A DNA stretch of 64,000 nucleotides from an uncultured Jannaschia sp. (lineage in GTDB: Bacteria; Pseudomonadota; Alphaproteobacteria; Rhodobacterales; Rhodobacteraceae): the NCBI GenBank assembly GCA_947494145.1, contig CANLTZ010000012.1, positions 1 to 64,000 of the forward strand. Direction: 5' to 3'. Of this stretch, positions 13,949 to 22,766 are shown in pieces (positions within the stretch are counted from its first letter, which is position 1; every line of letters begins with the position of its first letter). Under the pieces are notes generated by a model. That model was not told the DNA's origin, ran no database searches, and saw only the letters and a list, made by a program, of their open reading frames with translations. The position numbers and the translations under genes are program-made.

Positions 13949-14755
13949 TCAGTCCAAGAAAGCCTTCTCAACGACGAAATGACCCGGTTCTGAGTTCGCG
14001 CCTTCCGCAAGGCCGTGCTGCGTGCATAAGTCCATGACCTCGGTGTTCAGCGCGCGATTGCCGCAGATCATGACGCGATCGGCGGCGGGCGACCATCGCG
14101 GAAAATCCAAAGCCTCGAAGATGCGCCCGTCGGATATGTGGTCCGTGATGCGGCCCATAACCCCTGAGGGTGCACGTGTCGTCGTCGGGTAGTAGTGCAG
14201 CCGGTCGCCGACCAATGCGCCGATCAACGGATCGTCGGGCAGGGCCTCGACGATGTCACGGCCATAGGCAAGTTCCTCGGGGGTGCGACAGATATGGGCC
14301 AAAATGACCTCGTCGTAGCTTTCCCATGTCTCAGGGTCGCGCAACAGCGACGCGAAGGGGGCGACGCCGGTGCCCGTGCAGATCATCCAGAGCCGCCGTC
14401 CCGGCAGCAGCGCGTCCAGCACCAGGGTGCCAACGGGTTTGGGGCGCAGGATCACTTGGTCCCCCGGCACGATCTTCTGCAATCGGGAGGTCAGGGGGCC
14501 GTCCGGCACCTTGATTGAGTAAAATTCCAACCCATCATCCCAGTTCGGCGAGGCGATGGAATAGGCTCGCAAGAGCGGCTTTCCGTCCTCTTTTTCCAGA
14601 CCGATCATGACGAATTCGCCCGACCGGAAGCGCAATGTACGGGGACGCGTTACCCGGAACGAAAACAGCGTGTCCGTCCAATTCCGGACGGCGGTGACGG
14701 TCTGGGCATCCGGCAGGACTTTCTTTGCGGGGGCAGGGGTTGCGACTATGGTCAT
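13949..14755 (-). CDS. fpr: Ferredoxin--NADP+ reductase
   Basis: A 268-residue FAD enzyme that moves electrons between NADP(H) and ferredoxin or flavodoxin. The start at 14755 removes an unlikely 69-residue extension overlapping the ferredoxin gene. The FAD-binding motif LLRAYSIASPNWDD and the NADP-binding GTGVAPFASLLRD are intact, and the C-terminus GHFVVEKAFLD resembles bacterial Fpr. It lies 11 bp after the 7Fe ferredoxin gene on the same strand, so the two form an electron-transfer pair. The AprA-like cluster on the opposite side is a plausible client. Confidence 0.93.
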   Translation of the reverse strand: MTIVATPAPAKKVLPDAQTVTAVRNWTDTLFSFRVTRPRTLRFRSGEFVMIGLEKEDGKPLLRAYSIASPNWDDGLEFYSIKVPDGPLTSRLQKIVPGDQVILRPKPVGTLVLDALLPGRRLWMICTGTGVAPFASLLRDPETWESYDEVILAHICRTPEELAYGRDIVEALPDDPLIGALVGDRLHYYPTTTRAPSGVMGRITDHISDGRIFEALDFPRWSPAADRVMICGNRALNTEVMDLCTQHGLAEGANSEPGHFVVEKAFLD

Positions 14756-14766
14756 GGCGGCGTCCT

Positions 14767-15108
14767 TTAGGCGACTTCTTCTGCCGGCTTTTCGGAGAAA
14801 TTGGTGGAAAGCTTGCCACCCTTGCCATCCATGGTGCCGGCATTTGGCAGCGGGTCTTTCTTGGCGACAATGACCGGCCAAGCCTCGGAATACTTCCGAT
14901 TGAAATCGACCCATTTCGCCATCTCTGGCTCGGTATCCGGGCGGATAGCGTCGGCGGGGCATTCCGGCTCACAAACGCCGCAATCGATGCATTCTTCGGG
15001 GTGGATGACGAGCATGTTCTCCCCCTCATAGAAGCAATCCACGGGGCAGACTTCGACGCAATCCGTATACTTGCAGGCGATGCAATTTTCGGTGACGACA
15101 TAGGTCAT
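14767..15108 (-). CDS. fdxA: 7Fe ferredoxin ([3Fe-4S][4Fe-4S])
   Basis: A 113-residue ferredoxin of the Azotobacter FdI type. Cysteines 9, 17 and 50 fit the 3Fe-4S cluster; 21, 40, 43 and 46 fit the 4Fe-4S cluster, with extra Cys12 and Cys25. The sequence [20 protein letters not shown] followed by [16 protein letters not shown] is diagnostic. The start at 15108 gives [16 protein letters not shown]. It precedes fpr by 11 bp and is divergent from the DUF971/AprA-like operon, with about 100 bp between the starts. Confidence 0.94.
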
Positions 15109-15213
15109 GGTCGGGAACTCCAAACGCTTTGGCCCGATCTGCCGCAGCGCAGCACCGCCGTCCGTCAACAAGTTGCTATTTGAGTTCCGCTAGACGGGTC
15201 ACCCTTCTCCAAA

Positions 15214-15555
15214 TTGCTGGAGAAAGCCATGATCGAACGCCTAGCGGCCAGCGCAGACCATCGCATCCTGATTATCGAATGGGTGGGGGGTGAGGCCTCG
15301 GAACTTGCGGCCGAAACGCTCCGCCGCGAGGCGCGGGATGCCCATTCCATAAGGGCGCGGCTGGATCATGGGGCGGTTCACGTAGTCGATGGGCTGACGA
15401 TTACGCATCTGGCCCAGGTCGGGCGTGCCGCGGTGAATGTGCATTTTTCCGACGGGCATGACCGGGCGATCTACCCATTCGCTTATCTAAGGGAACTCTC
15501 CGACCAGTTTGGAAAGAAGTTGACATTTGCTGCGTCGCAGCAGGGTGCAGACTGA
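15214..15555 (+). CDS. DUF971-domain protein
   Basis: A 113-residue protein; a start at 15229 (MIERLAAS) is equally possible. The core WVGGEASELAAETLRREARD...HGAVHVVDGLTITHLAQVGR...FSDGHDRAIYPFAYLREL is the DUF971 domain also found at the N-terminus of gamma-butyrobetaine hydroxylase and beside ApbC/Mrp iron-sulfur carriers. It has no cysteine. It begins the operon that continues with the AprA-like flavoprotein 30 bp later, so a role in assembling or serving the iron-sulfur/flavin enzyme is an attractive inference. Confidence 0.82.
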   Translation: MLEKAMIERLAASADHRILIIEWVGGEASELAAETLRREARDAHSIRARLDHGAVHVVDGLTITHLAQVGRAAVNVHFSDGHDRAIYPFAYLRELSDQFGKKLTFAASQQGAD

Positions 15556-15585
15556 AGCGAAACCAGCATTTCGAGGAAGCGCGCC

Positions 15586-17328
15586 ATGGATGAGATCGTC
15601 GACGGCATTACGCAGATCGACTGCGACATCCTGATCATCGGCGGCGGAACCGCCGGCCCCATGGCTGCTATCAAGGCCAAGCGAAAGAACCCAGATGCGA
15701 ACGTGGTTCTGCTGGACAAGGCCAACGTGAAGCGGTCGGGCGCCATTTCCATGGGGATGGACGGCCTGAACAACTCGGTCATCCCGGGCTATGCCACGCC
15801 CGAGCAGTATACCAAGGAAATCACCATCGCGAATGACGGTATTTGCGACCAGGCCGCTGTCTACCGCTATGCCGAGGAATGCTACGGCATCATTCAGGAA
15901 CTCGACCAGTTCGGTATCCGCTTCCAGAAGGATCAAAACGGCGAATACGACGTCAAGAAGGTCCACCATATCGGCACCTATGTTCTGCCGATGCCCAACG
16001 GGGACACGGTCAAGAAGGCGCTGTATCGCCAGCTTCGGAAGGCGCGGATCAACATCATCAACCGCTACATGGCGACCCGGTTGCTGACCGGCGAAGGCCG
16101 TGTCGCGGGCGCCATTTGCATCAACACCCGCACGGCCGAAACACTGGTCGTGCGCGCCAAGGCGGTGATCATGGGGCTGGGTGCTGCGGGGCGGCTGGGC
16201 TTGCCGACATCCGGCTACCTGTATGGCACCTACGAGAACGCGTCCAATAGCGGCGAAGGCTATGCCATGGCCTACCATGCGGGCGCGGGGCTGGCGAACC
16301 TGGAATGCTTCCAGATCAATCCGTTGATCAAGGATTATAACGGCCCAGCCTGCGCCTATGTGGCCGGGCCCATGGGCGGCTATACCGCCAACGCCAAGGG
16401 CGAGCGGTTCATCGAGTGTGACTACTGGTCCGGCCAGATGATGCAGGAATTCTACGACGAACTTCAGGGCGGCAAGGGGCCGGTCTATCTGAAGCTCAAC
16501 CATTTGGCCGAAGAAACCGTGGCCGAGATCGAGCGCGTGCTGCACATCGTAGAACGCCCCACGCGCGGCCATTTCCACGCGGGACGCGGCACCGATTACC
16601 GCAAGCAGATGATCGAGATGCATATCTCCGAGATCGGCTTCTGTTCCGGCCATTCCGCCAGCGGCGTCTTCGTGGACAAGCATGCGCGGACAACCATCCC
16701 GGGCCTCTATGCGGCAGGCGATATGGCGAACGTGCCCCATAATTACATGCTGGGCGCCTTCACCAACGGCGCTTTCGCCGGCCTGGATGCGGTGGATTTC
16801 ATTGCCGATGTGGACCACGCCGCCTTCGACCAGGGCGAGGTCGACGCCGAACGGGCGCGCGTGCTGGCGCCAACCAAGCGCGACGACGGCATCCCGCCCA
16901 ACCAGATCGAATACAAGACCCGGCGCCTGGTGAACGACTACCTGCAACCGCCCAAGGTCACCGCCAAGATGGAACTGGCCCAGGCCCGCTTCGCCGAGGT
17001 TCGCGAGGATATGGAAACGGGCATGTATGTTCGCGACGCGCATGAATTGATGCGCGCGCTGGAAGCCTCGACCATCCTGGATTGCGCCGACATGGCCGCC
17101 GCCGCCTCCCTTTACCGAACGGAAAGCCGGTGGGGTCTTTACCACAATCGCGTGGAATACGACCGCGACGACGAAAACTGGTTTTGCCACACGATCCTCA
17201 CCAAGGGCGCCGACGGCAAACCCACGCACCGCAAGCAGGCGGTCGAGCCCTACATCGTCGACATCGCCGACGACGAGAAGGACGCCTACCAAAACCAGCG
17301 CGTCACCAAGACCGTCGCCGCCGAGTAA
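15586..17328 (+). CDS. AprA/FrdA-superfamily flavoprotein subunit
   Basis: A 580-residue cytoplasmic FAD enzyme. The dinucleotide fold is DILIIGGGTAGPMAAIKAKR (13-32), followed by LLDKANVKRSGAISMGMDGL, which resembles adenylylsulfate reductase alpha more than fumarate reductase. GLGAAGRLGLPTSGY and PGLYAAGDMANVPHNYMLGA are further FAD contacts. The partner immediately after is a small two-cluster ferredoxin, as AprB is to AprA. No ATP sulfurylase, Dsr or Qmo genes are present, so dissimilatory sulfate metabolism is not indicated. With an SsuABC-like importer in the same run of genes, the substrate may be an imported sulfonate-like or other small anion; this is unproven. Confidence 0.82.
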   Translation: MDEIVDGITQIDCDILIIGGGTAGPMAAIKAKRKNPDANVVLLDKANVKRSGAISMGMDGLNNSVIPGYATPEQYTKEITIANDGICDQAAVYRYAEECYGIIQELDQFGIRFQKDQNGEYDVKKVHHIGTYVLPMPNGDTVKKALYRQLRKARINIINRYMATRLLTGEGRVAGAICINTRTAETLVVRAKAVIMGLGAAGRLGLPTSGYLYGTYENASNSGEGYAMAYHAGAGLANLECFQINPLIKDYNGPACAYVAGPMGGYTANAKGERFIECDYWSGQMMQEFYDELQGGKGPVYLKLNHLAEETVAEIERVLHIVERPTRGHFHAGRGTDYRKQMIEMHISEIGFCSGHSASGVFVDKHARTTIPGLYAAGDMANVPHNYMLGAFTNGAFAGLDAVDFIADVDHAAFDQGEVDAERARVLAPTKRDDGIPPNQIEYKTRRLVNDYLQPPKVTAKMELAQARFAEVREDMETGMYVRDAHELMRALEASTILDCADMAAAASLYRTESRWGLYHNRVEYDRDDENWFCHTILTKGADGKPTHRKQAVEPYIVDIADDEKDAYQNQRVTKTVAAE

Positions 17329-17340
17329 GGAGAGCCGGAC

Positions 17341-17583
17341 ATGCCCCTCGCCGAAAGCGCCTCAATCGTTCCGGTCGTCGTCGACAAGGACCTATGCATC
17401 GCCGACAAGGGCTGCACCGTTTGCGTCGATGTTTGCCCATTGGACGTGCTTCGGATCGCCGTCAAAGACGGCGCGCCCGAAACCGCTTATATGAAGTACG
17501 ACGAGTGCTGGTACTGCATGCCCTGCGAGGCGGATTGCCCGACCGGCGCCGTTACCGTGAACCTCCCGTTTCTGTTGAAGTGA
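17341..17583 (+). CDS. AprB-like 2[4Fe-4S] ferredoxin
   Basis: An 80-residue iron-sulfur protein with two cluster motifs: CIADKGCTVCVDVCP and CWYCMPCEADCP. The spacing CX5CX2CX3CP in the first motif, and the pairing with a flavoprotein 12 bp upstream, fit the electron-transfer subunit of an adenylylsulfate-reductase-like complex, although AprB proteins are usually longer. It probably relays electrons between the flavoprotein and the Fpr/FdxA pair encoded divergently. The next gene starts 7 bp downstream. Confidence 0.85.
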   Translation: MPLAESASIVPVVVDKDLCIADKGCTVCVDVCPLDVLRIAVKDGAPETAYMKYDECWYCMPCEADCPTGAVTVNLPFLLK

Positions 17584-17590
17584 GGGTGTG

Positions 17591-18544
17591 ATGGCCGCGC
17601 TTTTTGAAGATTTCGACGAAATCGCCGACCTGGCCGAGGGGCTGGATGACCCCTCGGCCGGCGCGCGCATCATGGCGGTGATCGACCTGGCCGACAGCGC
17701 CGATCCGGCGGCCATCCAACATCTTGCACGGGCCATTGCGGACAGCGATCCGGGGGTGCGCAAGCAAGCCGCACAGGCTTTGACGGATTTCGACGGCCGC
17801 GAAACCGCCGCCGCGTTGGTGAGCGCGCTTACCGACGATGACCCAGCGGTGGTGCAGGCGGCCGCAATCAGTCTGACGGAGTTGAAGGATCCGGCGGCAG
17901 GCGATGCCATCCTGCCGCATCTGAGCGACCCGGACCCGATCAAGCTGACCGCATGCTTTGCAGGCATAAAGGAATTGCGCCGTCCCGAAGCGATGGGCCC
18001 GGCCATCCACGCGCTTCAGCGACCGGAAACCGACCTACGCATCCAAGCCGTCGGCGTGATCGGTTGGCTACAGGATGAAGGATCACTTCCGGCCCTGCGC
18101 GATGCTACCAAGGACGCGGACGCACAGGTGCGCCGGACGGCTTTGGCCGCGCTTGGCTTTTCCCGCTCGGACCATGCCGAAGCTACGCTGATCGACGGGT
18201 TGACCGACGCGGAATGGCAGGTGCGCGAAGCCGCTGCCGAGACGCTTGCCAAGGCCGGTGCCGCGTCTTGCATCCCCGCACTGCGCGCCGCCCTGGACGA
18301 CGCGTTCTGGCAAGTCCGCCTGAAGGCCGTGCGGTCGCTCGGCAAATTGCATGCGACCGATGCCGCAATGGAAATCGCGCCGATGATGGATATTCCAATT
18401 CCGAATCTTCGAAAGGAATGTGCCGCGGTGCTGGGCGAATTGGCAGTCGCGGAGTCGATCGAACACTTAAAGAAATACGAAAACGATAATGACCCAGACG
18501 TTCGAAAAAACGTGCGTTGGGCATTGGGAAAGATGGCTGCGTAG
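17591..18544 (+). CDS. HEAT-repeat protein (PBS-lyase-like repeats)
   Basis: A 317-residue all-helical repeat protein; a GTG one codon upstream is an alternative start. Repeats of about 31 residues recur through the whole length, e.g. DPGVRKQAAQALTDFDGRET, DPAVVQAAAISLTELKDPAA, DAQVRRTALAALGFSRSDHA, EWQVREAAAETLAKAGAAS and FWQVRLKAVRSLGKL. There is no signal peptide. Such scaffolds dock partner proteins or, in phycobilin lyases, deliver cofactors. It closes the redox part of the operon, so it may assemble or hold the flavoprotein-ferredoxin complex. The exact role is unknown. Confidence 0.88.
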   Translation: MAALFEDFDEIADLAEGLDDPSAGARIMAVIDLADSADPAAIQHLARAIADSDPGVRKQAAQALTDFDGRETAAALVSALTDDDPAVVQAAAISLTELKDPAAGDAILPHLSDPDPIKLTACFAGIKELRRPEAMGPAIHALQRPETDLRIQAVGVIGWLQDEGSLPALRDATKDADAQVRRTALAALGFSRSDHAEATLIDGLTDAEWQVREAAAETLAKAGAASCIPALRAALDDAFWQVRLKAVRSLGKLHATDAAMEIAPMMDIPIPNLRKECAAVLGELAVAESIEHLKKYENDNDPDVRKNVRWALGKMAA

Positions 18545-18852
18545 CAGCCGATGTCATTTGCCTTAACAAAGGCCGCAGGTTGTCGTTCAATCGCAAGGTT
18601 GATCGATGATTTGCGGCTTTATTCGCTTTAAAATACTGATATATAATACAAAAAACACTGCCCGATTCTTAATCATGTGCAGACTGCGCGTAAATCAATA
18701 GCCCATGGAGATGGCGGTTTCTCCAGATCGCGCGGAAATATTAACCATTTACGCCCTTACTGACCAAACACAGAAGATACATAAGCGTGATCCGCGCCCC
18801 CTTAATGGTAACAAAGGTTAATGCAATAGACTGAAGCCAGCCGGAGAGAGTC
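18545..18852. promoter_or_regulatory. Promoter region of the SsuABC-like operon
   Basis: 308 bp, A+T-rich (for instance ATACTGATATATAATACA near 18632-18650). A 9-mer, TAACAAAGG, occurs at 18564-18572 and again at 18809-18817 close to the transporter start; it could be a regulator site but is short. No perfect FNR box (TTGAT-N4-ATCAA) is seen. A separate promoter here would allow the importer to be expressed apart from the flavoprotein genes. Confidence 0.4.
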
Positions 18853-20226
18853 ATGTTTCCCAAAGCAACGCTAAAGAACGCATTATACGCCGCCACCTTC
18901 CTATCCATGGCTCCCGCGCTTAGCGCCGAGACGATCACAATCGGCATCGGACACCAAAGCACCGTGACCAACACCGTTCCGGGCGGCATCATCATCGAAA
19001 AGTTGGAGCTTCTCGAAAAATATCTACCGACCGACGGCGACTATGCCGATGTCGAGTATGAGATCGTTTATCGCGACTATACGTCCGGCCCGCCCATCAC
19101 CAACCAGATGATCGCAGGAAAGCTGCAATTCGGCGTGATGGGGGATTACCCGTTGATCGTGAACGGCGCTACGTTCCAGGACCAGGGCAACGATGAAAGC
19201 CTGTTGATCCAGATCACTGGCTATAACCTGAAGGGCACGGGCAACGGCGTGGTCGTACCCGTCGACTCCGATGTCTATACGTTGGAGGATCTGGCCGGAA
19301 AATCAGTCTCGGCGCCCTTCGGGTCGGCCGCTTGGGGGATGTTCCTGGCCGTCATGGACCGTGAGGGCCTGACCGATGACATCGACCTCGTGAATCAAAG
19401 CCCGCCAGTCGGGGTCAACAACATCGCTGTGGGCCGCATCGACGCCCATGTGGACTTCACACCCTGGTCCGAGGTCATGGAATTCCGCGGCACGGGCCGC
19501 AAAATCTATGACGGCAGCGAAGCGCTCATCCCGACGTTCCACGGCACGGTCGTCCTGAAATCCTTTGCGGAGGAATACCCCGAGATCGTGGATGCCTACA
19601 CCAAGGCGACGCTCGAAGCGCAGCAATGGATCGCGGATGACCCGCTCAACGCGGCGATCAAAGTGTCGGAGTGGACGGGCATCGAAAAGGAAGTGCTGTA
19701 CCTTTACTTCAGCGATGGCGGCATCTCGACCTTTGAGAGTTCGATCAAGCCGCAATGGGTTGAAAGTCTGAAGGAAAGCCATGCACTGCTGGTGCGTGAG
19801 CGGGACGTGCCTGCCCTGGATTTCGACAAATGGGTGGATGACAGCTTCATCCGCGCCTCTGTGGCGGAAACGGGTGGCGACTACGAAGCCATGGTCAGCT
19901 CCGTCGTTGACACCGCGATTGCGAACGAAGGCAAACCGGCAGAGATCTGGCATCCCCGCGATGGCATTTCGTCCTATGAGACGCTGCCCGACTTCTTCAA
20001 CGGGCTGGCCACCATTCGCGACACCGGCTTCGCGCCCCTGGCAAGCTACGTCTACGACGCGAATTCCGGTCTGAAACTTTTCGGGACCAGCGCATTCTAC
20101 GCGACCGATTCCGATGGCGGCTACGCGGCCTTCCTCAAGCGGGCGGATGCGGAAGCCTATGCCACCGCCGAGGGCGGCGCGCTGACGACCTATCAAGACA
20201 TCATCGCCAGCATCGCCAGCCAGTAA
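18853..20226 (+). CDS. NrtA/SsuA/TauA-like substrate-binding protein with NosL-like C-terminal domain
   Basis: A 457-residue periplasmic protein with signal peptide (cleavage near APALSAE). Residues ~25-370 have the pattern of nitrate/sulfonate/taurine binding proteins: ITIGIGHQSTVTNTVPGG, MIAGKLQFGVMGDYPLIVNG, LEDLAGKSVSAPFGSAAWGM and VGRIDAHVDFTPWSEV. It is over 100 residues longer than usual. The extra tail (about 372-457), with SAFYATDSDGGYAAFLKRAD and YATAEGGALTTYQDI, resembles the NosL copper-chaperone fold but contains no cysteine. It begins the importer operon; a stem-loop follows its stop codon. Confidence 0.82.
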   Translation: MFPKATLKNALYAATFLSMAPALSAETITIGIGHQSTVTNTVPGGIIIEKLELLEKYLPTDGDYADVEYEIVYRDYTSGPPITNQMIAGKLQFGVMGDYPLIVNGATFQDQGNDESLLIQITGYNLKGTGNGVVVPVDSDVYTLEDLAGKSVSAPFGSAAWGMFLAVMDREGLTDDIDLVNQSPPVGVNNIAVGRIDAHVDFTPWSEVMEFRGTGRKIYDGSEALIPTFHGTVVLKSFAEEYPEIVDAYTKATLEAQQWIADDPLNAAIKVSEWTGIEKEVLYLYFSDGGISTFESSIKPQWVESLKESHALLVRERDVPALDFDKWVDDSFIRASVAETGGDYEAMVSSVVDTAIANEGKPAEIWHPRDGISSYETLPDFFNGLATIRDTGFAPLASYVYDANSGLKLFGTSAFYATDSDGGYAAFLKRADAEAYATAEGGALTTYQDIIASIASQ

Positions 20227-20242
20227 TTACCCGACCATGCGA

Positions 20243-20264
20243 GCGCCGCGTGATCGCGCGGCGC
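20243..20264. terminator. Intra-operon stem-loop after the binding-protein gene
   Basis: Perfect 8-bp arms GCGCCGCG and CGCGGCGC with a 6-base loop, 16 bp after the binding-protein stop and before the permease start. It has no T-run, so it is more likely an attenuator or a 3' stabilising structure than a full terminator. Confidence 0.65.
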
Positions 20265-20295
20265 CCGCAATCTGATTTTGCCCGGGAGTGTCTCC

Positions 20296-21162
20296 ATGTC
20301 CGCCAATCCCGACCTAGCCGATGACGCCGCCGCCACCTCGACACACGCACCGCCGCCGAGGGCGGCGCCCGTACCGTCGGGCAATGGCCTGCCGCCTTGG
20401 GCCGTGCAGGCCCTTATCGCATGTGGCTCGCTTCTGGGGGGGCTCGCCATCTGGCAAGTTGGCAGCGCTCAGGGGTGGAGTGGGTTCATCAACTTCGCGA
20501 ACATTCCGACGCCCGGCGAGGTGTTGGACTCCACGCTCGAAAACATCGCAGACCCGGAATTCTACACCCACATCGCTGTGTCTATCCGGCGCGTGATGCT
20601 GAGTTTTGTGCTGGCCGTCGTGGTCGGCGTGCCGATCGGCCTCTTCATGGCGCGAAACAAATTCGCCCGCGCGGCGCTGCTGCCCTATATCGAAATCCTG
20701 CGTCCGATCCCGGCGGTCGCGTGGATCCCGCTGGCCATCCTGATGTGGCCGACCGAAGAATCCTCGATCATCTTCATCACCTATCTCGGGGCCTTTTTCC
20801 CCATCGTGCTCAACACCATCAGCGGGGCCGAACAAACGCCCGAAGTCCTGATCCGCGCCACCCGGTCCCTGGGCGCCTCCAAGTTCGACGAATTCCGCCA
20901 CGTGGTCTTCCCAGCCGCTTTGCCGTCGATCTCGGCGGGGTTGGCGGTCGGTATGGGGGTCGCGTGGTTCTCGCTTTTGGCGGGGGAAATCATCTCGGGC
21001 CAATACGGAATCGGCTACTTCACCTGGGATGCCTATTCCATGGTGCGCACGCCCGACATCGTCCTGGGCATGCTGGTGATCGGGATGCTGGGCACGGCCT
21101 CGACCGTGGCGGTCAAGCTACTGACAAAGCCCATGCTGAAATGGCAGGCCCGCGCCCGCTGA
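20296..21162 (+). CDS. ABC transporter permease, SsuC/TauC type
   Basis: A 288-residue inner-membrane permease; the ATG at 20296 has CGGGAG upstream. It has about six membrane segments and the BPD_transp_1 signature EFRHVVFPAALPSISAGLAV, the loop that contacts the ATPase. An N-terminal Pro/Ala-rich cytoplasmic tail of about 40 residues precedes the first membrane helix. It sits between the binding protein and ATPase genes. Confidence 0.9.
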   Translation: MSANPDLADDAAATSTHAPPPRAAPVPSGNGLPPWAVQALIACGSLLGGLAIWQVGSAQGWSGFINFANIPTPGEVLDSTLENIADPEFYTHIAVSIRRVMLSFVLAVVVGVPIGLFMARNKFARAALLPYIEILRPIPAVAWIPLAILMWPTEESSIIFITYLGAFFPIVLNTISGAEQTPEVLIRATRSLGASKFDEFRHVVFPAALPSISAGLAVGMGVAWFSLLAGEIISGQYGIGYFTWDAYSMVRTPDIVLGMLVIGMLGTASTVAVKLLTKPMLKWQARAR

Positions 21163-21184
21163 CGGCGATCAGAAGGACTAACCC

Positions 21185-22027
21185 ATGTTCAACGTCCACA
21201 AATTCACCAACGCCGAGGCCCGCCGCCAGTCCGATATCGGCAAGGGCCACATCGCGGTCCGCGACGTGTCGATCACCTTCGGACAGAGCGCCGCCGCACA
21301 CCTGGCGGTCGACACAACGTCGATCGACATCGCCCCGGGCGAGTTCGTCTGCATCCTTGGCCCGTCCGGCTGCGGGAAATCGACCTTGCTGAACGCGGTC
21401 GCGGGCTACGTGGCCCCCACCACCGGCACGGTGTCGGTGGATGAGGTCGTCGTGGACAAACCCGGGCCCGACCGGGGCATGGTCTTCCAACAATATTCCC
21501 TGCTGCCTTGGAAGACGGTCTACGAAAACGTCGCCTTCGGTCCCAAAATGGCCGGCGCGACCCGGACCGAGGCCGGGTCGGTCGCCAACACCTTTCTGAA
21601 CCTGGTCGGGTTGCGCAAATTCGGCAACCGCTATCCTGCCGAGTTGTCCGGCGGGATGCAGCAGCGGGTCGGCATTGCCCGCGCGCTGGCGAATTATCCG
21701 TCTGTCCTGCTGATGGACGAACCCTTCGGGGCGCTGGATGCGCAAACCCGCCTGGTCATGCAGGAAAGCCTGCTAGAGATCTGGCGGAAGTTCGGTACAA
21801 CCGTGGTCTTCGTCACCCATGACGTCGATGAAGCGGTCTTCCTGGCCGACCGCGTTTTGATCATGAGCGCAGCGCCCGGCCGCATCATCGAAGATGTGGA
21901 AATCAAACTGCCACGCCCCCGCAACCCCGACATGGCCAGCACGCCGACCTATGTCGAAGCGCGCCAGTTCTGCCTGGACACCATCCGCGCCGAAAGCCGG
22001 AAGGCCTTCGAGGCACAGAATGTCTAA
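21185..22027 (+). CDS. ABC transporter ATP-binding protein, SsuB/TauB type
   Basis: A 280-residue ATPase. Walker A is GPSGCGKST, the Q-loop lies in MVFQQYSLLPWKT, the signature is LSGGMQQR, Walker B is VLLMDEPFGALD and the H-loop is FVTHDVDEA. The Q-loop sequence QQYSLLPWKTVYENV is characteristic of nitrate/sulfonate/taurine importers. Its stop codon overlaps the start of the following CRP-type regulator (ATGTCTAA). Confidence 0.93.
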   Translation: MFNVHKFTNAEARRQSDIGKGHIAVRDVSITFGQSAAAHLAVDTTSIDIAPGEFVCILGPSGCGKSTLLNAVAGYVAPTTGTVSVDEVVVDKPGPDRGMVFQQYSLLPWKTVYENVAFGPKMAGATRTEAGSVANTFLNLVGLRKFGNRYPAELSGGMQQRVGIARALANYPSVLLMDEPFGALDAQTRLVMQESLLEIWRKFGTTVVFVTHDVDEAVFLADRVLIMSAAPGRIIEDVEIKLPRPRNPDMASTPTYVEARQFCLDTIRAESRKAFEAQNV

Positions 22028-22766
22028 GGCCCGCCCCGTCTTGGTCGCGGCAGGCGACCCGCAAGAAGCGAAGCAGCCAAGCGCGATCTACCTGTCCGAA
22101 TACCTACTCGACCTGAACGAAGGCGCGGGGTTCCTGACGGGACTTTCCGACCATGACCGCAAAGCCGTTCGCAAGCTCGGCACGCGCTGCATTGTCGAAA
22201 AGGGCGGGGGCATCTTCTTCCAAGGCGACGCCCATACCGGCGTCTGGATCGTCGAAGCGGGCCGGGTCCGCACCTTCTATGCCGGCCCTTCGGGGCGGGA
22301 GATCACCTTGGCTTATTGGAGCCCCGGCCACTTCGTGGGCGGGCCGGAAGTCTTTGGACGCGGGCGCCATGTCTGGTCGGCGGATGCCATGGAGGAATGC
22401 AAGCTGCTCTTCCTTTCGGGCACTAGCCTGCAAAGCCTGGTGCGGGATGTGCCCGACGTCGCCATTGCGGTCATCCAAGGGCTAATCGCCAAGGGAAAGT
22501 GTTATTCCGCGCTGATCCAGATGCTGGGCACCCGCACCGTGTCGGAACGTTTACGCCAGCTTCTTTTGATCCTGGCAGACACCCATGGCCGCCACGAAGG
22601 CGATGTAATCATCGTCGAACGGTCGATCACATACGATCAAATCGCGTCAATCGTCGGTGCGACGCGCCAATGGGTCACGCAGTCGCTCGACCGTTTGCAA
22701 GCTGACGGTATCATCAACCTCAACCGGCGAGAGATCGCGATCCGCGACTTGGATCGTCTTCACTAA
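22020..22766 (+). CDS. CRP/FNR-family transcriptional regulator
   Basis: A 248-residue regulator. A cyclic-nucleotide-type beta-roll covers residues ~45-150 (GGIFFQGDAHTGVWIVEAGR...WSPGHFVGGPEVFG) and the winged HTH lies at ~185-245 (ITYDQIASIVGATRQWVTQS). It has no cluster of N-terminal cysteines, so it is not an FNR-type oxygen sensor. The start overlaps the ATPase stop, implying that it controls this importer and perhaps the redox operon upstream. The stop codon TAA is the first base triplet of a repeat element, so the original C-terminus may have been altered. Confidence 0.9.
   Translation: MSKARPVLVAAGDPQEAKQPSAIYLSEYLLDLNEGAGFLTGLSDHDRKAVRKLGTRCIVEKGGGIFFQGDAHTGVWIVEAGRVRTFYAGPSGREITLAYWSPGHFVGGPEVFGRGRHVWSADAMEECKLLFLSGTSLQSLVRDVPDVAIAVIQGLIAKGKCYSALIQMLGTRTVSERLRQLLLILADTHGRHEGDVIIVERSITYDQIASIVGATRQWVTQSLDRLQADGIINLNRREIAIRDLDRLH

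Follow-up and report, generated by a model that had tools for sequence, protein, structure and literature searches.

A conserved cluster of an AprA-like flavoprotein, a small ferredoxin and a sulfonate-type importer, and its possible role in sulfur acquisition

The closest described relatives of the enzyme considered here are the reductases of adenosine 5'-phosphosulfate (APS) and 3'-phosphoadenosine 5'-phosphosulfate (PAPS). In the passages of PMC2211403 on the APS reductase AprBA (2fja, 3gyx), Asn74, His398 and His446 of AprA lie at the sulfate group or within the substrate channel, Arg265 helps to hold the sulfate group, and a relay tryptophan carries electrons from cluster I to flavin adenine dinucleotide (FAD). 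For the PAPS reductase of Methanothermococcus thermolithotrophicus, MtPAPSR (8a8o), passages of PMC10322725 propose Trp42 for the same electron transfer. In this study, we analyzed a 64,000-nucleotide stretch of contig CANLTZ010000012.1 from an uncultured Jannaschia sp. (the whole stretch is referred to as the window), in which a flavoprotein of this branch is encoded with a small ferredoxin, a HEAT-repeat protein, a DUF971 protein, an ATP-binding cassette (ABC) importer, a regulator and a divergent fpr-fdxA pair. The enzyme family, its conserved residues and its neighborhood are established; from sequence and neighbors we propose, at a probability of roughly 45%, that the cluster is a sulfur-acquisition system that imports a sulfonate-like compound and then releases sulfite from it by an AprBA-like two-electron reaction.

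The likeness to each known system is partial. The cluster shares with AprBA the alpha-beta layout, equivalents of Asn74, His398 and His446, and the C-W-x-C relay (PMC2211403), but the window's family lacks Arg265, Trp234 and the AprB tail, has no clear counterpart of Glu141, and misses the aprA model. MtPAPSR has the same fold, a similar length and a two-cluster ferredoxin partner, and the corresponding passages of PMC10322725 also give it the conserved Asn, the GH motif and the Trp proposed for electron transfer; it has Arg at the Arg265 site, however, where the window's family has Leu, and it reached 277 bits in a profile search versus about 1040 for the family's own members. The passages on MtPAPSR in PMC10322725 describe no importer, HEAT protein or DUF971 protein. 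A ferredoxin-NADP reductase encoded with a sulfur-reduction cluster is described for fpr2-cysIXHDNYZ of Corynebacterium glutamicum, which, by the title of PMC1266029, carries sulfate-assimilation genes (cysI, cysH and others) where the window has an AprA-like gene. The importer resembles SsuABC and TauABC in being a three-part ABC system and in having four structural relatives of this type, but its binding protein has an extra C-terminal part and misses the SsuA_fam cutoff. Finally, PRK13800 (NF010374) consists of the same flavoprotein and HEAT parts, fused in one chain where the window has two genes.

The flavoprotein scores 1042.4 bits against NCBIfam NF006131 (PRK08275; cutoff, 587), a functionally uncharacterized family. 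It misses both the aprA model TIGR02061 (127.5 bits; cutoff, 641.75) and the sdhA model TIGR01816 (113.7 bits; cutoff, 727.35), and its best match in the PDB is the alpha subunit of MtPAPSR (8a8o; 1e-59), with AprA next. A tree of 46 rows, from which L133 and L134 were dropped as too short and in which long branches were flagged, placed the NF006131 family with AprA and PAPSR, apart from 11 Sdh-type proteins by a 100/100 branch; NCBIfam scores back the outgroup rows L119, L123, L127 and L137, and the other rows were assigned via the alignment. In 82% of bootstrap trees the NF006131 family came out as a single group. All 11 Sdh-type rows carry the motifs HPTG, RDV and HGANR, which have catalytic roles in succinate and fumarate enzymes, and none of the 28 flavoprotein rows does. 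By these comparisons the flavoprotein is a separate family on the AprA/PAPS-reductase branch, neither a fumarate reductase nor an APS reductase, and we argue that the name "fumarate reductase/succinate dehydrogenase," which NCBIfam and annotated plasmid records give to NF006131, is wrong or misleading. When 398 genomes of the phylum were sampled, 21 passed the NF006131 cutoff and no other match exceeded 218 bits, so the family appears clean and sporadic. Among 100 nearer genomes, matches at an E value of ≤1e-60 came from two, the window's own and one other of the same family, and the flavoprotein also occurs on plasmids of proteobacteria, cyanobacteria and actinobacteria. The Bradyrhizobium genome of locus L057 (G508 C12, C13) has the flavoprotein gene in two copies.

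At the presumed active site, three AprA residues are kept in every one of the 28 flavoprotein rows: Asn74 as N62, His398 as H356 (in an SGHSA motif) and His446 as H385. The motif GSH stands at the His398 site in 6 of 6 AprA rows, and its His is presumably AprA residue 398, judged from its place in the alignment. Judged from sequence, the enzyme is thus AprA-like without being an APS reductase. A structure model of the flavoprotein (alignment A2) had a mean predicted local distance difference test (pLDDT) score of 64.6, with positions 46-62, 199-270 and 345-361 below 50; because these low scores lie near the presumed active site, neither fold searches nor pocket mapping were based on the model.

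Neighborhoods were compared over 81 loci, namely the best 80 of at least 596 matching stretches plus L010. Since 30 of the 80 are named Bradyrhizobium, the loci are not independent, and several of the missed genes fall at contig ends. The ferredoxin gene is found in 80 of the 81 (median gap of 13 bp by mechanical frames), the HEAT gene in 77, a CRP- or UTRA-type regulator in 71, and the binding protein and ATPase in 65. This gene set recurs in three phyla, and annotated plasmids carrying it come from Acidithiobacillus, Cupriavidus, Methylobacterium, Mesorhizobium, Acinetobacter, Pseudanabaena, Leptolyngbya and Tsukamurella. No sat, qmo or dsr gene was seen in the eight annotated plasmid neighborhoods, no genome search having been made for them. 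Judged by titles and the starts of abstracts, searches of the open-license literature aimed at the cluster or its chemistry yielded no study of it; the cluster is widespread but apparently unstudied.

In the partner ferredoxin, the eight Cys residues and Trp57 (C-W-x-C) are invariant in 82 of 82 rows, which represent matches in 108 loci with 27 near-identical rows removed and the window included. Ferredoxins adjoining three AprA-type genes (L139-L141), taken as AprB from place and sequence, have C-W-E-C at the same place. At 80 amino acids versus about 140-160 in AprB, and with the C-terminal tail absent, the small ferredoxin looks like an AprB core minus its tail. Fpr or FdxA was found in 53 of the 81 loci, and in Bradyrhizobium-type loci fpr directly precedes the flavoprotein gene in the same orientation. 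In one gammaproteobacterial metagenome-assembled genome (L073), the flavoprotein, ferredoxin, HEAT, FdxA and DUF971 genes are followed by RnfB-, RnfC- and RnfD-type genes, of which the first was named from its FeS and 4Fe-4S domains. A TauE protein is encoded past the Rnf-type genes, and Fpr was not detected at this locus. Fpr with FdxA, or FdxA with Rnf in one locus, could serve as the electron source.

The window's HEAT protein matches the C-terminal part of the fusion family NF010374 (1.7e-22), and in Tsukamurella (L115) flavoprotein and HEAT parts form one 893-amino-acid chain that scores 1568 bits against NF010374 (cutoff, 1196); this fusion supports the HEAT protein being part of an enzyme complex. 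Queried with the window's protein, 63 of the 81 loci gave a DUF971 match; a second query added 9 of the 18 that were left, and 9 of 81 matched neither query. DUF971 was rejected as a universal part of the cluster, as the cyanobacterial loci L113 and L114 have none and carry Mrp there. In these two cyanobacteria an Mrp/NBP35 gene follows the HEAT gene, with YeiH and TauE genes next, in either order, and the presence of Mrp suggests that DUF971 is in Fe-S service. Both the fusion and the Mrp gene after HEAT fit scaffold or assembly roles for HEAT and DUF971, without proving them. A C-x-C-x-x-C motif (e.g., CKCAHC) is present in 29 of 49 aligned DUF971 rows and missing in the window and its nearest relatives, and in one genome a rhodanese-like protein adjoins DUF971 (L151:15033-15542).

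The importer points to a sulfonate-like substrate. The binding protein has four PDB matches at an E value of ≤0.01 (3uif, 6ssy, 3e4r and 2x26), and all four are of the SsuA/taurine/alkanesulfonate type: an SsuA, a taurine binder, an entry titled "nitrate transport protein" (3e4r) and an aliphatic-sulfonate binder. The 3e4r protein is a binder of alkanesulfonates. No SsuD- or TauD-like gene was present among ten scanned cluster proteins. The NosL tail that had been assigned to the binding protein did not hold up, as the Pfam match (E value, 0.054; 14.3 bits) falls below the cutoff of 24. A copper-related reading of this NosL-like tail was also discarded: within the last 120 columns of 29 aligned rows, no column had Cys, Met or His in half of the rows.

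Sulfite enters the argument through the neighbors YeiH and TauE. The abstract of PMC12880088 names YeiH as the main sulfite-resistance factor in Salmonella, and part of PMC12423496 names a Hyphomicrobium YeiH, adjoining TauE, as a sulfite exporter. In a first set of 22 genomes, 7 have a YeiH gene (PF03601) at most 10 kb away from the flavoprotein gene (0.106 expected); in a second set, of 37 further genomes, the number is 8 (0.203 expected). The P values of 7e-12 and 1e-11 assume uniform placement and overstate the evidence, because five of the seven cases in the first set come from one genus; the two sets may also overlap in genomes. The second set comprises the genomes of 37 of 38 loci, with L026 left out, and the YeiH of G525 is a fragment with a stop. 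As a control, pairing YeiH with CysH-type (PF01507) genes within 10 kb gave 0 of 22. The placements of YeiH differ: it is next to fpr in Labrenzia (L020), has DUF971 on one side and fpr on the other in Afipia (L022), lies past the ATPase gene in Bradyrhizobium (L026) and adjoins the regulator gene in G110 (L146). At least 5 of the loci L010-L118 (109 in all) have TauE/SafE-type genes, the hosts being cyanobacteria and a small number of others; these counts derive from few BLAST queries and are lower bounds. As for the fate of sulfite, a sulfite/nitrite reductase domain is encoded in 22 of 22 flavoprotein-bearing genomes, and in the window's genome this gene is side by side with a CysH-type gene. 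The same genome encodes two Mo-co_dimer proteins, a domain of sulfite-oxidase-type enzymes.

Taken in this way, the cluster would work as follows. The importer would take up a sulfonate-like compound with an SO3 group. Electrons would run from NADPH via Fpr and FdxA to the two [4Fe-4S] clusters of the small ferredoxin, and from there via Trp57 to the buried FAD; the parts of this chain are present, and their order is modeled on AprBA. The reduced flavin would attack or reduce the sulfo group, as in APS reductase, leaving a desulfonated product and sulfite, a product to which YeiH and TauE point. Sulfite may then pass to the ordinary assimilatory sulfite reductase, and any excess may leave through YeiH/TauE-type exporters. 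The HEAT protein would sit in the enzyme complex or clamp it, DUF971 (or Mrp) would serve its Fe-S clusters, and the local regulator would control the cluster genes. We infer the substrate, the sulfite product, the reductive direction and the accessory roles. Enzymes known to act on sulfonates include oxygenases, lyases, thiamine enzymes and glycyl-radical enzymes. A bolder idea, that aerobes possess a new, oxygen-independent desulfonation unlike these, in which a ferredoxin-driven flavoenzyme derived from AprBA cuts the C-S bond of an imported sulfonate by two-electron reduction via a flavin-sulfite adduct, is doubtful.

The first-pass annotation of this locus, made from the sequence, had arrived at a similar idea, a flavin reductase or oxidase acting on an imported and possibly sulfonate-like anion. 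This idea is borne out in part and can now be stated more narrowly. The AprA-like enzyme, the neighborhood, the importer and Fpr-FdxA as a likely supply have held, and the NosL tail has not. The NCBIfam scores and the tree place the flavoprotein on the AprA branch, as neither AprA nor Frd/Sdh, and by both measures the protein does not group inside a characterized family. Its AprB-like ferredoxin, shorter than AprB, is confirmed by the invariant residues and the length given above; Fpr-FdxA as the likely electron source gains support from fpr upstream of the flavoprotein gene and from FdxA with Rnf in L073, and the sulfonate-type importer from the four PDB relatives. The survey of gene neighborhoods that it had suggested found the set conserved in other genomes, by the counts over 81 loci, and added YeiH and TauE, which point to sulfite.

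Several observations weigh against the proposed sulfite release. AprA Arg265 is replaced by L247 and Trp234 by Y216 in 28 of 28 flavoprotein rows; the Arg265 region reads R-F-K-D-G in 6 of 6 AprA rows, and MtPAPSR retains the Arg. Glu141 faces position 129 (I, L, M, V or S) in one alignment and falls elsewhere in another. With Arg265 lost, Trp234 changed and Glu141 without a clear counterpart, the AprA mechanism is not transferable unchanged, and the loss of Arg265 weakens the attack of reduced FAD on a sulfo group that we would draw by analogy. Moreover, for N5 to attack the sulfur in a plain alkanesulfonate, a very poor leaving group would have to depart, so the substrate may instead be an activated sulfo-compound. 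The binding protein scores 93.1 bits against SsuA_fam (TIGR01728), below the cutoff of 163.5. YeiH is present within 10 kb in 15 of 59 genomes and absent from that range in 44, and the window's genome has it on a different contig. It is also a common gene, found in 20 of 22 genomes of the first set, 27 of 37 of the second and 6 of 14 control genomes. CysH-type (PF01507) genes are kept in 22 of 22 hosts checked. The flavoprotein was found at an E value of 1e-60 in 0 of 19 other genomes of the same genus. Finally, the Sco1, PCuAC, c-type cytochrome and TlpA-like neighbors of some loci are unexplained by a sulfite product.

The sulfite neighborhood would fit an oxidative version just as well. Here the flavoprotein would dehydrogenate an imported organosulfonate and pass electrons to the ferredoxin, from which FdxA and then Fpr (or Rnf) would deliver them to NAD(P)+; elimination of sulfite would follow. 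There are dehydrogenases in the wider superfamily, and Fpr, FdxA and Rnf are known to work both ways. We consider this version unlikely, since the HPTG, RDV and HGANR motifs carried by all Sdh-type rows are missing from all flavoprotein rows, the ferredoxin keeps an AprB-type relay, and in aerobes Fpr with a low-potential ferredoxin usually moves electrons from NADPH to ferredoxin. Chemistry closer to that of APS, a reductive split of an activated S-SO3, N-SO3 or O-SO3 bond, would make thiosulfate, polythionate, S-sulfocysteine, sulfamate or a sulfate ester the candidate substrate. Kinship with AprA and PAPSR and the retained Asn and His residues fit an O-SO3-like bond best, and the sulfite-exporter neighbors fit equally, but the resemblance of the binding protein to sulfonate and taurine binders and the loss of Arg265 leave such a substrate rather improbable.

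A metal-linked or non-sulfur role, in which the importer takes up a metal complex or other anion that the redox module reduces, would make Sco1, PCuAC, the cytochrome and TlpA the real clue. BLAST over the 109 loci found Sco1 in 12, PCuAC in 7 and a c-type cytochrome in 8, with a single case of each backed by Pfam; TlpA-like proteins are encoded in L020 (by Pfam) and in L051 and L056 (by eye). Such neighbors occur in a minority of loci, however, mostly of the Rhodobacterales type, and none was seen in the window's run of genes; the NosL-like tail is below its cutoff and lacks conserved metal ligands, and YeiH and TauE would be left unexplained, all of which makes this role very unlikely. It is hardly credible that the flavoprotein is a misnamed APS/PAPS reductase or fumarate reductase. 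Its best structural relatives are PAPSR and AprA and its automatic annotation does say fumarate reductase/succinate dehydrogenase, but it falls far below both cutoffs (aprA, 127.5/641.75 bits; TIGR01816, 113.7/727.35 bits), has lost Arg265 and the Sdh/Frd motifs, and belongs to a separate group in 82% of bootstrap trees.

The layout of the locus is given in Table 1. All genes named in the first-pass annotation were recovered in place by Pfam and NCBIfam; the tight spacing that it described is broken between the HEAT and binding-protein genes, and this 308-bp gap makes two plus-strand units likely. The probable starts of the DUF971, HEAT, CRP, Fpr and FdxA genes were chosen by reading frames. 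The Fpr protein matches Pfam NAD_binding_1 (1.4e-6) and FAD_binding_6 (2.7e-5), and its match to NCBIfam PRK10926 (4e-36, 124.5 bits) is below the cutoff of 390.

Table 1. Features of the flavoprotein locus in the window
Feature	Coordinates	Strand	Basis and remarks
fpr, ferredoxin-NADP+ reductase	13949..14755	-	Start read from frame; open frame to 14962
fdxA, 7Fe-type ferredoxin	14767..15108	-	Start inferred; NCBIfam FdxA_Protbact (NF045490), 164.8 bits, above cutoff of 135
21-bp conserved element, GTCCGTMAACWARTTGCTATT	15160..15180	+	Between the divergent fdxA and DUF971 genes
DUF971 gene	15229..15555	+	ATG at 15229 probable start, TTG at 15214 alternative; Pfam GBBH-like_N, 2.2e-14
AprA-like flavoprotein, 580 amino acids, NF006131	15586..17328	+	Pfam FAD_binding_2, 1.5e-35; 1042.4 bits
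AprB-core-like two-cluster ferredoxin, 80 amino acids, eight Cys	17341..17583	+	Sequence, alignment
HEAT-repeat protein	17588..18544	+	Start at 17588 or 17591; Pfam HEAT_2, 1.2e-60
Gap of 308 bp, lower GC (45%)	18545..18852	.	Probable start of second plus-strand unit
ABC substrate-binding protein, SsuA/TauA type, 457 amino acids, C-terminal extension	18853..20226	+	SsuA_fam, 1.7e-26
ABC permease	20278..21162	+	BPD_transp_1, 5.6e-24
ABC ATPase	21185..22027	+	ABC_tran, 2.3e-31
CRP/FNR-type regulator	22020..22766	+	Start inferred; open frame from 21894; cNMP_binding, 3e-14; HTH_Crp_2, 4e-12

The 21-bp element has a core that is invariant in 10 of 10 aligned Rhodobacterales-type loci, with diverged flanks, and in the window it matches once and in 100 shuffles not at all. 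Allowing up to three mismatches, each of the 5 genomes searched contains the pattern once, in the fdxA/DUF971 region of the window's genome and at the flavoprotein locus, by coordinates, in the other four. As these loci themselves supplied the pattern, the informative part is its rarity elsewhere, and the backwards control gave 1 and 2 matches in two of the five genomes. This placement suggests that the element could be a local switch for the redox genes. An operator shared by both plus-strand units was not found, as no 9-mer occurred in front of both units in more than one of nine loci and there was no common palindrome, and scans for promoters and terminators gave no excess over shuffles.

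Some loci carry further genes near the cluster. Twelve loci (L011, L012, L014, L015, L018, L020, L037, L051, L053, L056, L063 and L142) carry, along with the importer genes, one or more members of a set that comprises Sco1, PCuAC, a c-type cytochrome, a TlpA-like protein and a membrane protein; the membrane protein at L015:13463-14266 has no Pfam match. A LysR regulator adjoins the flavoprotein gene in a cyanobacterium (L113:9661-11661, minus strand), with a C-terminal NMT1-like match (E value, 3e-4) below the cutoff. On the Acidithiobacillus caldus plasmid pTcM1, a 1153-amino-acid protein whose sole recognized domain is Pyr_redox_2 stands beside the cluster (L111:10574-14035).

If sulfite is indeed freed from sulfonates or other sulfo-compounds by this cluster, it would represent an unrecognized route in the organic sulfur cycle and, if true, a case in which the APS-reductase scaffold has been turned to another substrate. 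The prediction is testable directly, with few genes and a sulfite assay.

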